Shown here piece by piece: positions 9,335 through 36,121 of a stretch of 48,184 bases of DNA. Position 1 is the first letter of the stretch. Every line of letters starts with the position of its first letter. The notes beneath the pieces were generated by a model. The model was given only the letters and a program-made list of their open reading frames with translations, did not search any database and was not told the origin of the DNA. The stretch comes from Planctomyces sp. SH-PL62 (GTDB lineage Bacteria > Planctomycetota > Planctomycetia > Planctomycetales > Planctomycetaceae), in assembly GCA_945893075.1 (NCBI GenBank), contig CAMDDX010000010.1:1-48184 (forward strand). The letters run 5' to 3'. Position numbers and translations under genes: made by a program.

Positions 9335-10453
9335 CTATTCCAACGTGAACGCCGGCAACCTCACGATCTCTCCCCCCTTCAACGCCGACTGGTGAGCACA
9401 GATGCCGACGCAGGTCCAGTTCGCGGACAGCGTCGCGTTCGGCCACGGGTCGCGGTTGTCGCGCAGTGCCGAGACGAACTCGTTGACCAAGTGCGGATGC
9501 GAGCCGCCGTGGCCGCCACCTTGGATGAACGAGAGGTGCTCGGAGTCGTGAATTTCGGCGGGCTGAGTGAATTTGCGGATCGGCTCCGGCAGCAGATGAG
9601 CGTAATCCGGGATCGTGACTTTGGTCGGAATCTCCGGCTCTGGTTTCTTGGCCGTGTGAATGACGTGCGGTTCGTGTTCGACCAGTGTCCACTCAAACGA
9701 TCGCTTCGTGCCGTAGACGTCGAAGCTCTCGCGGTACTGCCGAGCGACGTCATACAGGAACCGCCAGATGTGCGCGGTCACGTCGCTGTCCTTCACTTTG
9801 ATGTGACACGACTCGACGGCGAACTTGTTGCCGCTCTTCTGAGCGATGTCGTCGCGAACGGTTCCGGAGCCGAAGCAGGACACGTACTCGGCCCGGCCGT
9901 TGACGAGACCGAGGCACGGGCTGACGACGTGCGTTGCGTAGTGCATCGGAATCATCTTCTGCCAGTAGTCCGGCCAGCCGTCCATGTCTTGCGGGTGCGA
10001 CGCGGCGAGGTGCTGAATCTTGCCAAGCTCCCCCTTCTGGTACATCTCTTTGATGAAGAGGAATTCGCGGCTGTAAACGACGGTCTCGGCCATCATGTAT
10101 TTGAGGCCGGTGGACTTCACGAGTTCGCAAATCTGCTGGCAGTCTTCGATGGTGGTCGCCATCGGCACGGTACACATCACATGCTTGCCGGCCTTGAGAG
10201 CCTCGATCGACATCCGCGCGTGCTCGGAGATCGGACTGTTGATGTGGACGAAATCGACGTTCGGGTCTTTCAAGACGTCGGCGTATTCGGTGAATCGTTT
10301 CTCGATCTTGAACCGGTCGCCGACCTTGTGGAGCTTCTCGGTGTTCCGCTGGCAGATCGCGTAGACATTCGCGTCCGGGTGAGCCTGATAAATCGGAATG
10401 AACTCCGAGCCGAATCCCAACCCGATCATGGCGACGTTGACTGGTTTGCTCAT
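9335..10453 (-). CDS. Gfo/Idh/MocA family NAD(P)-dependent oxidoreductase
   Basis: The protein has 372 residues. The N-terminal Rossmann fold shows the dinucleotide motif GLGFGSEF at residues 12-19, the VDFVHINSPISEHA strand-loop, and the segment AGKHVMCTVPMATT where the family usually has EKP. The C-terminal domain has the substrate-side segment HGGSHPHLVNEFVSAL. No Tat signal is seen, so it is cytoplasmic. Relatives oxidise or epimerise sugars and inositols. The downstream ThuA gene supports a sugar role. The EKP variant (TVP) means the catalytic Lys is not at its usual place, so the reaction may differ. Confidence 0.9.
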   Translation of the reverse strand: MSKPVNVAMIGLGFGSEFIPIYQAHPDANVYAICQRNTEKLHKVGDRFKIEKRFTEYADVLKDPNVDFVHINSPISEHARMSIEALKAGKHVMCTVPMATTIEDCQQICELVKSTGLKYMMAETVVYSREFLFIKEMYQKGELGKIQHLAASHPQDMDGWPDYWQKMIPMHYATHVVSPCLGLVNGRAEYVSCFGSGTVRDDIAQKSGNKFAVESCHIKVKDSDVTAHIWRFLYDVARQYRESFDVYGTKRSFEWTLVEHEPHVIHTAKKPEPEIPTKVTIPDYAHLLPEPIRKFTQPAEIHDSEHLSFIQGGGHGGSHPHLVNEFVSALRDNRDPWPNATLSANWTCVGICAHQSALKGGEIVRLPAFTLE

Positions 10454-12653: not shown

Positions 12654-12820
12654 CCTGGAGTGCGGTGGCTCGACACCGCCCTCCATTCGATTGGAAGAGC
12701 GATCCTCAAAGTCCAAAACACGTCGCCACGGTCATCGGGTGAGCGATGGCCGTTTTCTTGGCGATCCATGTCTACATTCCAAATGGATGGAGGGCTGCGT
12801 CGAGCCGCAGCAGTCCAGGG
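12654..12820. repeat. Hairpin-ended intergenic element, copy 1
   Basis: About 167 bp whose ends are imperfect inverted repeats (GGAGTGCGGTGGCTCGACAC and, as reverse complement, the end near 12790-12820). A second copy at 14634-14801 is collinear along its whole length and roughly 80% identical by eye. It could be a non-autonomous mobile element or a structured intergenic repeat. Confidence 0.85.
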
Positions 12821-20279: not shown

Positions 20280-20489
20280 ACCTTTGAGTCTTGATTGATC
20301 CCGCGCTTGTCTCTTGGAGTTCCTTACATTCGCTGTCTCCCTAAATTCGCTGTCGCCTCTTTGTCTTGAATGAGAGATCGACAGCGAATTTAGGGAGACA
20401 GCGAATGGGACGCCTGCGGAAATCTTCGTGACCGCAGTTTGCATCCGTCCCTGGCCTTGAATCGTACGTGGCTCAAAAGTTGTGTGGAT
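20280..20489 (-). repeat. About 210-bp repeat element with 28-bp perfect hairpin, copy 1
   Basis: The arms at 20327-20354 and 20380-20407 are perfectly complementary (ATTCGCTGTCTCCCTAAATT core). Read on the minus strand, about 210 bp from 20489 aligns with 33570-33785, including flanks outside the hairpin. A small open frame through both copies keeps the peptide SLNSLSISHSR, but I see no ribosome site, so I do not call a gene. Confidence 0.8.
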
Positions 20490-33494: not shown

Positions 33495-33563
33495 AGTAGC
33501 AGGCACATTCCATGTGCCGTCCGCAAATCGCAGGGAAACGGCACATGGAATGTGCCTACTACT
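33495..33563. repeat. Intergenic inverted repeat, 26-bp arms
   Basis: Arms at 33495-33520 and 33538-33563 (AGTAGCAGGCACATTCCATG) with one mismatch and a 17-nt loop. Downstream of the esterase-SGNH gene. Confidence 0.9.
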
Positions 33564-33569
33564 TTCTAC

Positions 33570-33785
33570 ACAACTTTAGGCCGCAGGCGATTCATGGCCA
33601 GATGCGGATGCAACGGGCGATAACGAGCATTTCCGCAAGCGTCCCATTCGCTGCCTCCTTAAATTCGCTGTCGATTTCTCATTCCCGACGAAGATTCGAC
33701 AGCGAATTTAAGGAGGCAGCGAATGTCAGACTGAGAAACTCGCGCCACCAGACAAACATTGACCAGAGCCTCGATCATCGAGTTG
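33570..33785 (+). repeat. About 210-bp repeat element with 30-bp perfect hairpin, copy 2
   Basis: Arms at 33645-33674 and 33696-33725 are perfectly complementary. The element is collinear with the minus strand of 20280-20489, hairpin and both flanks, and the potential peptide SLNSLSISHSR is conserved. No ribosome site is seen. Confidence 0.8.
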
Positions 33786-33859: not shown

Positions 33860-33894
33860 CAGCCCGGCGCGGAACACCCGCGCCGGGCTGTTTT
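33860..33894 (+). terminator. Rho-independent terminator
   Basis: A 13-bp perfect GC-rich stem (33860-33872 with 33878-33890, CAGCCCGGCGCGG), loop AACAC, followed by TTTT at 33891-33894. It is 440 nt past the nearest upstream gene and about 140 nt before the riboswitch, so it insulates the riboswitch operon or ends a short unannotated RNA. Confidence 0.8.
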
Positions 33895-34031
33895 CGTCGA
33901 TGCGGCTGCACTTTTCCTGAAGTTGGCAAAATCAACTTGCATGGCGTCGTCGCCGACCTAGGTTGGATTTGGTCTCCTCGATCACGAGCCGTCGTGCTCC
34001 CAGCAGTCTGAGCCACCTCCTTGGCGGAGCG

Positions 34032-34132
34032 TGACTCGAAAAGGCAAACCCGTCGCGAGGCGGGGACGCAAAGCTATGGGTCTGACGCGTCGCAACGTGC
34101 GCCGCAGCAGATCGCCTGGCTACCGAAAGTCA
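34032..34132 (+). promoter_or_regulatory. GEMM-I (cyclic di-GMP type) riboswitch
   Basis: The conserved core reads GGCAAACC, then a 6-bp stem CCCGTC/GGCGGG closed by a GCGA tetraloop, then GGACGCAAAGC. A second stem is closed by GGTCTG/CAGATC, followed by GGCTACCGA. P1 is TGACT (34032-34036) with AGTCA (34128-34132). These match the c-di-GMP-I aptamer in order and spacing. The 3' P1 strand plus TCC (34129-34135) can instead pair with GGA and TGAC around the ribosome site (34147-34156), suggesting a translational ON switch. The guanine that separates c-di-GMP from cGAMP binders seems to be present, but by my alignment only. Confidence 0.88.
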
Positions 34133-34156
34133 TCCTTTAAGATCGAGGAGAGTGAC

Positions 34157-34855
34157 ATGAATACGCAGACCTTGTCGGGAATGAGCCGCCGCGCCGCGTG
34201 CCGGCGATTGCTGGGATTGGCGAGTGTATCTCCGCTGGCCTTGTCGTGGCTGGGTTCCGTTCAGCCGGCCATTGGCGACGGTGACGACTTAAGTATCGGC
34301 AACACGGTCCGGATCGAGGAGGACTGGTACGTTAAGATCGGCACGCCGGACCCCGATTCGGATTCGCCGCAGATCACCAGCGTGATCGCTCCGTCTTGGA
34401 CGCTGTCGGGCAAATACGTGGTGTTCGATATGAACTGTGCGACGCAGCCCGGCTTCGTTTCCGGTGGCGTCCAACTCCAGATGTGGCAGGATGACGCCAT
34501 CATCCAAAGTCGCAGCAATGCCAACTGGGACTCGCTGCACCTCGTCAACGAAGAGATTCGTTACACCTCAGCCATGAGCGTCGTCGACGGCAAGCTGGTG
34601 TTTGAAATCCTCAACGGCACCTCGGAATCCTGGGGCACCTTTGGCACGGGCGAATTGAAGCTCGAAGTCGACACGTGGCGGAACCATCTGAATTGGTACA
34701 GCCCGGAGTTCACGGCCTACAACTCGCGGGTCGGTTTTGCCTCGCACCGCGTGCGACGCTTCACGCTCGAACGGGTGCGCTACTTCTCGGCGAACGGCTT
34801 GAGGTCCACGGACGACACGCCGCGTGTTCTGCACACATACGACCCGCAGATGTAA
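34157..34855 (+). CDS. Tat-exported protein of unknown function under riboswitch control
   Basis: The protein has 232 residues from ATG 34157 (GAGGAGAG ribosome site). A twin-arginine-like signal (SRRAACRRLLGLASVSPLAL) ends near 38. The mature part is beta-rich with many Asp, Ser and Trp residues (DDLSIGNTVRIEEDWYVKIG, then WDSLHLVNEEIRYTSAM and ELKLEVDTWRNHLNW). I do not recognise the family. It sits directly behind a GEMM riboswitch and before a TadG-like gene, so a role in surface attachment or matrix is plausible (inference). Confidence 0.8.
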   Translation: MNTQTLSGMSRRAACRRLLGLASVSPLALSWLGSVQPAIGDGDDLSIGNTVRIEEDWYVKIGTPDPDSDSPQITSVIAPSWTLSGKYVVFDMNCATQPGFVSGGVQLQMWQDDAIIQSRSNANWDSLHLVNEEIRYTSAMSVVDGKLVFEILNGTSESWGTFGTGELKLEVDTWRNHLNWYSPEFTAYNSRVGFASHRVRRFTLERVRYFSANGLRSTDDTPRVLHTYDPQM

Positions 34856-34924
34856 CGTCGATTCACGAAATCGGCGCGTCTTGTCGGCTCGTTTTCATCC
34901 CAATCCTGGATGAGGAGAATCATC

Positions 34925-36121
34925 ATGTTTCTTACCCGATCTGGAATTCAACTGCGGCGCAAACTGCGGCACGCTCGCCACGGGGGCATTGTGGCCTGGT
35001 CGGCGGTGACGTTGACGGCCGTCATGGGGTTCACCGCGCTCGCGGTGGATGTCGGATTCATGACACAGACCAAAGCGCAGATGCAGGCGGCCGCCGATGG
35101 CTCCGCATTGTCGGCCGCGTTGGAAATGCCCAACGGGTGGGGCAGCGGCAAGACGTTGACGGCCGGGCAAGTCGCTGAGGCCGGACGCAGTGCCGCGGAA
35201 GCCGTCGCATCGAAGTACCGTCTGGGAGAACAAGCCGCCGCTTATCTGGACACGAATCGCGACGTCCGCTTCGGTCAACGGACTCAAACCGCTCAAGGGG
35301 CGTGGATCGAGACCTGGGGTGCGTCCCCGTACAACATGGTGGAAGTCACGATTCATCGCGATCAGCCACTGGCCGGAAGCACGGCCACTCGCGCCGATCA
35401 GGAGTTGCCGCTGTTCTTCGCGAAAGCTCTGGGGAATAAATCAGCGGCGCTGATCGCCAAAGCCACTGCGGTGGTCTCTCCCGGAAACGGCTTCTATATC
35501 CCTGCGGGGAGCGGTCTGACTTGCCCATTGCTGCCGCTCGCCATTGATGAGACGACTTGGAACATCCTCGTCAACGATGGTGTTGGCAGCGACAACTACA
35601 GGTACAACAGCGACGGGACGGTTGTCAGTGGCACCGATGGGATTAACGAGGTGAGCATGTATCCCGACAACAACGGGAGTTTGCCTTCCGGTAATCGCGG
35701 CAGCGTCGATTTTGGATCGCCGAATAACAGCACGGCCGACTTGTCGCGGCAGATTCGTTATGGCGTCAACGAAGATGACTTGTCCTACTTCGGAGGCAGG
35801 ATCCAGATTCCTGCGAGCGGCTTGCTGGCGGTCAATGGAGATACCGGCCTCAGTGCCGGCATCAAAGATGACCTGGACGCGATCATCGGTCAGCCGCGAG
35901 CGATCCCTGTCTTCCGCTCCGTCTCCGGTCCCGGCAACAACGCCACGTATCAAATCTGCAAGTTCGTCGGCATCCGCATCCTGTACGTGAAACTCACCGG
36001 CAGCCCCAGCGGAAAAGAAGTGATCGTGCAACCGGCACCCGTCTTTGGTGGCACGATCGTCGGTGCTCCCGGAGCCATTCAGATCGATTCGATCATGACC
36101 TCGCTCAAATTGGTCCATTGA
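34925..36121 (+). CDS. TadG-like (Flp pilus/Tad-type) exported protein
   Basis: The protein has 398 residues from ATG 34925 with a GAGGAG ribosome site. The N-terminus has the Tad pattern: a basic start, then GGIVAWSAVTLTAVMGFTALAVDVG as membrane helix, and the following TKAQMQAAADGSALSAALEM typical of TadE/TadG-family pseudopilin-associated proteins. The long C-terminal part is non-cytoplasmic. No other tad or flp genes are near. Placement in the riboswitch operon links it to c-di-GMP-controlled adhesion (inference). Confidence 0.82.
   Translation: MFLTRSGIQLRRKLRHARHGGIVAWSAVTLTAVMGFTALAVDVGFMTQTKAQMQAAADGSALSAALEMPNGWGSGKTLTAGQVAEAGRSAAEAVASKYRLGEQAAAYLDTNRDVRFGQRTQTAQGAWIETWGASPYNMVEVTIHRDQPLAGSTATRADQELPLFFAKALGNKSAALIAKATAVVSPGNGFYIPAGSGLTCPLLPLAIDETTWNILVNDGVGSDNYRYNSDGTVVSGTDGINEVSMYPDNNGSLPSGNRGSVDFGSPNNSTADLSRQIRYGVNEDDLSYFGGRIQIPASGLLAVNGDTGLSAGIKDDLDAIIGQPRAIPVFRSVSGPGNNATYQICKFVGIRILYVKLTGSPSGKEVIVQPAPVFGGTIVGAPGAIQIDSIMTSLKLVH

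Follow-up and report, generated by a model that had tools for sequence, protein, structure and literature searches.

Computational analysis of a 48-kb window (the whole stretch of planctomycete DNA under study, 48,184 nt) revealed a class I c-di-GMP riboswitch aptamer, the two-gene operon that follows it, the conservation of this arrangement and a covariation between the leader in front of the aptamer and the Shine-Dalgarno (SD) region behind it. With somewhat better than even confidence, we favour the reading that a class I riboswitch controls an operon for a secreted lectin-fold protein (P0001) and a TadG-like protein (P0002), and that an extension of P1 formed by leader and SD would make it a ligand-OFF switch. 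Within this reading, we infer the identity of the ligand, the direction of the response and the surface role of both proteins. The riboswitch class is a known one; its platform here is open to experimental test, and the secreted proteins form a family that has no name. The features on which the analysis is based are the following:

33860..33896 (+): intrinsic terminator of the upstream gene, an inverted repeat with a 13-bp perfect GC stem (CAGCCCGGCGCGG/CCGCGCCGGGCTG) followed by GTTTTC.
34014..34022 (+): leader anti-SD strand CACCUCCUU, pairing with GAGGAG-A-GUG (34145-34154); own versus swapped partners, z -4, p 5e-5.
34014..34033 (+): putative competing leader hairpin CACCUCC-uuggc-GGAG-c-GUG of the P1-barred fold, which would occupy a portion of the P1 5′ arm.
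34031..34036 (+): P1 5′ arm GUGACU, pairing with AGUCAU at 34128-34133.
34034..34128 (+): c-di-GMP class I (GEMM-I) aptamer; RF03167 62 bits, RF01051 60.8 bits, covariation.
34128..34133 (+): P1 3′ strand AGUCAU, the alternative partner of the ribosome site in a preliminary description of this DNA.
34145..34150 (+): SD GAGGAG of P0001, recognised by sequence; duplex with the 16S 3′ end, -7.6 kcal/mol.
34157..34855 (+): P0001, secreted 232-aa protein without a named family; predicted ConA/galectin-like beta-sandwich over residues about 50-230.
34925..36121 (+): P0002, second gene of the operon; TadG-like (Tad and Tad_C, without VWA), with a long N-terminal helix.

A class I aptamer precedes the P0001-P0002 operon

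Rfam cmscan of the whole window returned a single RNA match above gathering, located at 34034-34128 on the forward strand and assigned to RF03167 c-di-GMP-I-GGC (62 bits, E 2.3e-12; gathering threshold 59 bits). A covariance-model search of the whole genome scored the same positions at 60.8 bits for RF01051 (E 5.6e-11; gathering threshold 35 bits), and this was the sole match to either model in the 7.57-Mb planctomycete draft genome. The preliminary description had placed a c-di-GMP-I aptamer ahead of the gene pair and had named an Rfam covariance-model search of this region as the check; the above-threshold match bears it out, and all the boxes that it quoted are present (GGCAAACC, a GCGA tetraloop, GGACGCAAAGC, a GGUCUG/CAGAUC stem and GGCUACCGA). 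The distance that it gave between aptamer and ATG, 24 nt, needs correction, the covariance-model match ending 28 nt before the ATG at 34157. Both-sided changes were found at 13 of the 18 consensus P2/P3 pairs among 28 aligned relatives, P2 carrying a GNRA loop, while the P1 arms of each locus paired better with each other than with those of swapped loci (p 0.0002-0.003) and JAPLNX showed a compensatory change in P1 (UUGAUU/AAUCAU). Overall, these results confirmed that the element before P0001 is a genuine class I c-di-GMP riboswitch aptamer.

Between the upstream gene and the aptamer lies the terminator at 33860-33896, which the two closest relatives also have; its position would place the transcription start of the operon after it. 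A sigma-70 promoter scan of the region 5′ of the aptamer gave nothing above chance. P0002 starts at 34910 or, more likely, at 34925 and ends at 36121, and the gene after it lies on the opposite strand. The host genome encodes four GGDEF proteins, five Tad-domain proteins and three CpaB/RcpC proteins; thus, c-di-GMP signalling and Tad machinery both exist in it. Two repeats lie further upstream. At 33645-33725 (and also at 20327-20407) there is a perfect 30-bp inverted repeat with a 21-nt loop, which is a genome-wide, REP/MITE-like hairpin repeat, since its arm has 52 copies genome-wide, mostly in facing pairs at fixed spacing. The second, at 33495-33563, is palindromic (AGTAGCAGGCACATTCCATGTGCCGT ... 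ACGGCACATGGAATGTGCCTACTACT), and its core has 33 copies genome-wide, mostly in pairs 38 nt apart.

The aptamer is linked to P0001 across the family

Of 101 genomes sampled from the family to which the window belongs, 40 carried a homologue of P0001, and the 7 matches obtained in a 294-genome sample of the phylum all fell inside that family. Where enough contig remained, a P0002 homologue followed the P0001 homologue in almost every case. Using a family covariance model built from 28 family aptamers, we located, in 17 distinct genomes/contigs, an aptamer that lies 2-43 nt ahead of the P0001 start; the P0001 homologues concerned are 30-90% identical. An eighteenth case, G024, carries the aptamer before a TadG-type gene that is followed by P0001 and P0002 in the same operon. 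In most P0001-linked loci the gap between aptamer and AUG is ∼20-35 nt.

About half of the P0001 loci are without the aptamer. Two further loci retain a decayed aptamer before P0001 (L151 of G319 and L150 of G379); in G319, the P0001 frame contains three stops and the aptamer is down to 34 bits, suggesting that switch and gene may decay together. Aptamer-bearing rows cluster on the P0001 tree (5 changes versus 13 in shuffles), which is consistent with an old association of the aptamer and some losses. In G333 (contig L104), two near-identical aptamers lie 2.4 kb apart (10293-10386 and 12723-12816), the second being followed by a duplicated P0001 5′ end and then by a protein kinase/receiver gene, that is, a partial tandem duplication.

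The leader upstream of the aptamer is predicted to pair with the Shine-Dalgarno region

To look for pairings kept by evolution, we compared the energy of each locus's own partners with that of partners swapped between loci. The leader segment from -28 to -9 before the aptamer and the SD..AUG region reached -11.3 kcal/mol with their own partners and -9.1 kcal/mol with swapped ones (z -4.1, p 5e-5, 21 loci), and the result was the same in the 15 P0001-linked loci (-10.6 versus -8.2, p 5e-5). This signal is about as strong as that of the known P1 helix, while windows further 5′ gave little or no pairing signal. Among 19 aptamers from other lineages, several of them with terminator-like hairpins, the excess was not significant (p 0.08), indicating that the pairing is not phylum-wide. 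In the window, the leader-SD helix sits directly outside P1 and forms an outward extension of it; the corresponding pairs are CUCCUG with CAGGAG in G333 and CUCCUCCAG with UUGGAGGA and beyond in G349b. The covariation between leader and SD also argues that the leader is transcribed.

We then folded 25 leaders by partition function, including 30 nt of leader, with P1 either closed or barred; nearest-neighbour models of this kind take no account of ligand energy, pseudoknots or co-transcriptional order. Closing P1 lowered SD accessibility in 15 of the 25 leaders and raised it in 2, and in the window the SD was free at 0.00 with P1 closed versus 0.26 with P1 barred. The two states differed by up to about 7 kcal/mol, in most cases by 0-5, which is small enough that a ligand could tip the balance. 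When only 14 nt of leader were included, as for a transcript starting just ahead of the aptamer, the direction became ambiguous (7 leaders hiding the SD, 5 exposing it and 13 neutral), and at several loci the SD was partly hidden in the P1-open fold too. The two halves of the competing leader hairpin paired only slightly better with their own partners than with swapped ones (p 0.014, mean z -0.7).

From these models we predict a translational OFF switch. The class I riboswitch would occupy the 5′-UTR of the P0001-P0002 operon, P1 continuing outward through the pairing of the pyrimidine-rich leader CACCUCCUU (34014-34022) with the SD region across the aptamer, so that the aptamer would be enclosed in one long helix with the ribosome site at its far end. 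Binding of c-di-GMP would hold P1 and its extension closed and block the ribosome start of P0001. At low c-di-GMP the leader would fold on itself and take part of the P1 5′ arm, leaving the SD freer; in the window, this open state probably forms through the hairpin CACCUCC...GGAGcGUG. Translational OFF is the simplest reading because ligand binding requires and stabilises P1, and the conserved leader-SD pairing, which buries the ribosome site in the P1-closed state, therefore points to ligand-OFF.

The preliminary description had proposed the opposite direction, namely that the P1 3′ strand pairs either in the aptamer or with the ribosome site. In such a translational ON switch the ligand-free strand AGUCAU/CCU would pair with AGG.AGA.GUGAC, and the ligand would lock the strand in P1 and free the site. 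The hairpin can be drawn (-7.3 kcal/mol in the window and in two near-identical relatives, with a similar one in G333), in folds that omit the upstream leader SD accessibility rises from 0.27 to 0.82-0.86 once the 3′ strand is blocked, and an ON response would agree with the textbook association between high c-di-GMP and adhesion. However, the excess of own over swapped pairing was not significant in any set (p 0.09-0.42); for the 3′ P1 strand against SD..AUG, own partners were no better than swapped ones (p 0.42 for the 21 loci and 0.11 for the 15 P0001-linked loci) and the pairing was rejected, and with the leader included it is the P1-closed folds that hide the SD. We thus regard an ON switch as unlikely: the preliminary description was right on class and theme and probably wrong on the mechanism.

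Less likely still, indeed rather improbable, is control of transcription, RNA stability or Rho instead of SD occlusion, in which the leader-SD helix would be a constant structure that lowers translation. In its favour, terminator-like hairpins with U runs are common behind aptamers elsewhere in the phylum, and in G349b and G313b the leader-SD helix is predicted regardless of the P1 state, but the short distance from aptamer to AUG in most P0001-linked loci leaves little room for a terminator.

The OFF direction predicted here for pilus-type genes is not odd in itself, since both ON and OFF class I switches have been described (PMC9262584, PMC6366702). The V. cholerae pair shows opposite responses and the functional class I switches of C. 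difficile are OFF (PMC6366702), and Cd1 and pilM differ in direction (PMC9262584). Compared with the RF01051 examples (V. cholerae Vc1/Vc2 and C. difficile Cd1), the element in the window shares the aptamer fold, the tetraloop stem, the conserved core, the position in the 5′-UTR and the targeting of surface, motility or adherence genes. It differs from them in its predicted platform, where the strand that would hide the ribosome site comes from 5′ of the aptamer and extends P1 outward, and in the regulated gene, which encodes an unnamed planctomycete protein.

Ligand specificity of the aptamer

The ligand is probably c-di-GMP, judging from the letters that contact it. In the window and in the alignment of relatives, the contact letters G20 and A47 (Vc2 numbering) are in place (AGGCAAACC and GCAAAGC). 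The lead of RF03167 over RF01051 is ∼1 bit and, although the window scores above the RF03167 gathering threshold, the letter that distinguishes this variant is missing: instead of the consensus GCGAAGC the window reads GCAAAGC, the A being invariant in 28/28 aligned relatives. The element was therefore treated as an ordinary class I aptamer. Likewise, the A at position 20 that marks cGAMP-type GEMM-I aptamers is absent from the window aptamer, which has G there. That the ligand is another cyclic dinucleotide, either 3′,3′-cGAMP or an unknown ligand of the c-di-GMP-I variant class, is very improbable, the best Rfam score for the variant model and the A at the G20 position of two relatives being outweighed by the G at position 20 and the canonical GCAAAGC of the window itself.

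Position 20 is a known selectivity site, and a G20A change leads to cGAMP binding (PMC6274999). The two relatives with A instead of G at this position are the aptamers of G336 (L106:6971-7090) and G152 (L110:8269-8370), for which a cGAMP-type specificity is predicted within the same planctomycete family as the window. The G308 and G348 aptamers carry C at position 20.

P0001 has a predicted lectin-like fold and P0002 is TadG-like

P0001 matched no family in Pfam, NCBIfam or PHROGs and no PDB sequence, and its homologues did not share a consistent Pfam, NCBIfam or PHROG family either. AlphaFold2, supplied with 40 homologues, modelled P0001 as a confident beta-sandwich, with pLDDT blocks mostly >90 from residue 51. 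By VIA-align, the top structural matches were the thrombospondin C-terminal domain (Z 9.5, rmsd 3.1, 139 residues), HC7 (9.4), galectins (8.7), legume lectins (8.4) and CBM66 (8.3); with Z values of 8-9.5 to several ConA-like superfamilies, the predicted fold is the jelly-roll of ConA-like lectins. The sandwich resembles that of ConA-like/galectin-fold lectins and CBM66 over residues 50-213, but P0001 is only about 2-12% identical to them and has no sequence-family match, and neprosin-type and HC7 glycopeptide-binding folds score similarly to lectins. Because the top structural matches are all ConA-like in arrangement, P0001 might plausibly bind glycans or matrix, though this is no more than a guess.

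P0002 matched PF13400 Tad (31.8 bits, cut-off 22.3) and PF09977 Tad_C (22.4 bits, cut-off 22.1), and its predicted structure comprises a 59-residue N-terminal helix and a mixed alpha/beta body. With TadG/TadE-like proteins (PF13400, PF09977; TIGR03816) it shares the N-terminal Tad hydrophobic helix and the Tad_C region. In contrast to the TadG-VWA genes of the same regulon (proteins of L115, L111 and L114), no VWA domain was matched in P0002. Its C-terminal half is highly conserved in the P0001-linked subfamily, and a fold search against the PDB gave no match above Z 4. The operon would thus encode a secreted lectin-fold protein and a membrane-anchored pilus-type protein.

The exported protein of no named family and the TadG-like gene after it, both announced in the preliminary description, were found. 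Its view that P0001 is Tat-exported may hold locally: the nearest relatives retain the RR signal of the window protein (SRRAACRRLLGLA), and G216 has a textbook one, but most P0001 homologues carry an ordinary signal sequence, so Tat export is a local trait at best.

Sister aptamers point to a surface-protein regulon

Family aptamers that do not precede P0001 were found before TadE plus TadG-VWA genes (L114), TadG-VWA genes (L115, L111), N-methylated pilins of the type IV pilin kind (L113, L126), giant adhesin-like proteins with PKD/Big_9 or RTX/beta-helix (L118, L119, L129), subtilases (L117) and a reprolysin-like protein (L112). A prepilin peptidase-CpaB-secretin operon (L131; also called TadV-CpaB-secretin) is preceded by an aptamer in a sister family that belongs to the same class as the family of the window. 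Judged by these targets, the theme of the regulon is surface and pilus proteins. The surface or attachment theme of the operon, which had been described as a c-di-GMP-controlled surface-adhesion operon, is backed by the TadG-like partner and the sister-aptamer targets, while adhesion by P0001 itself may be read only from its fold and context. Planctomycetes alternate between swimming and attached cells. Surface, motility and adherence genes are reported targets of class I c-di-GMP riboswitches generally (PMC6366702).

A wider reading, which we hold tentatively and at a little short of even confidence, is that of a family-wide planctomycete c-di-GMP surface-protein regulon with a 5′-leader platform, whose commonest target, the secreted lectin-fold protein and TadG-like pair, would form a surface organelle or adhesin turned OFF at high c-di-GMP. 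In the open-access literature we found no paper on riboswitches of this planctomycete family, on P0001 or on riboswitch control of the switch between swimming and attached cells. The locus names a concrete c-di-GMP output in the family of the window, the two-gene pair, and offers a testable riboswitch design, with a ribosome site hidden by the strand before the aptamer and a predicted direction opposite to that described before.

In the phylum sample, family f44 (e.g. G217, G122 and G195) showed at least 15 RF03167 matches per 3-4 Mb genome, versus one in the genome of the window; judged by these matches, this other lineage of the phylum appears to have an enlarged c-di-GMP-I regulon.
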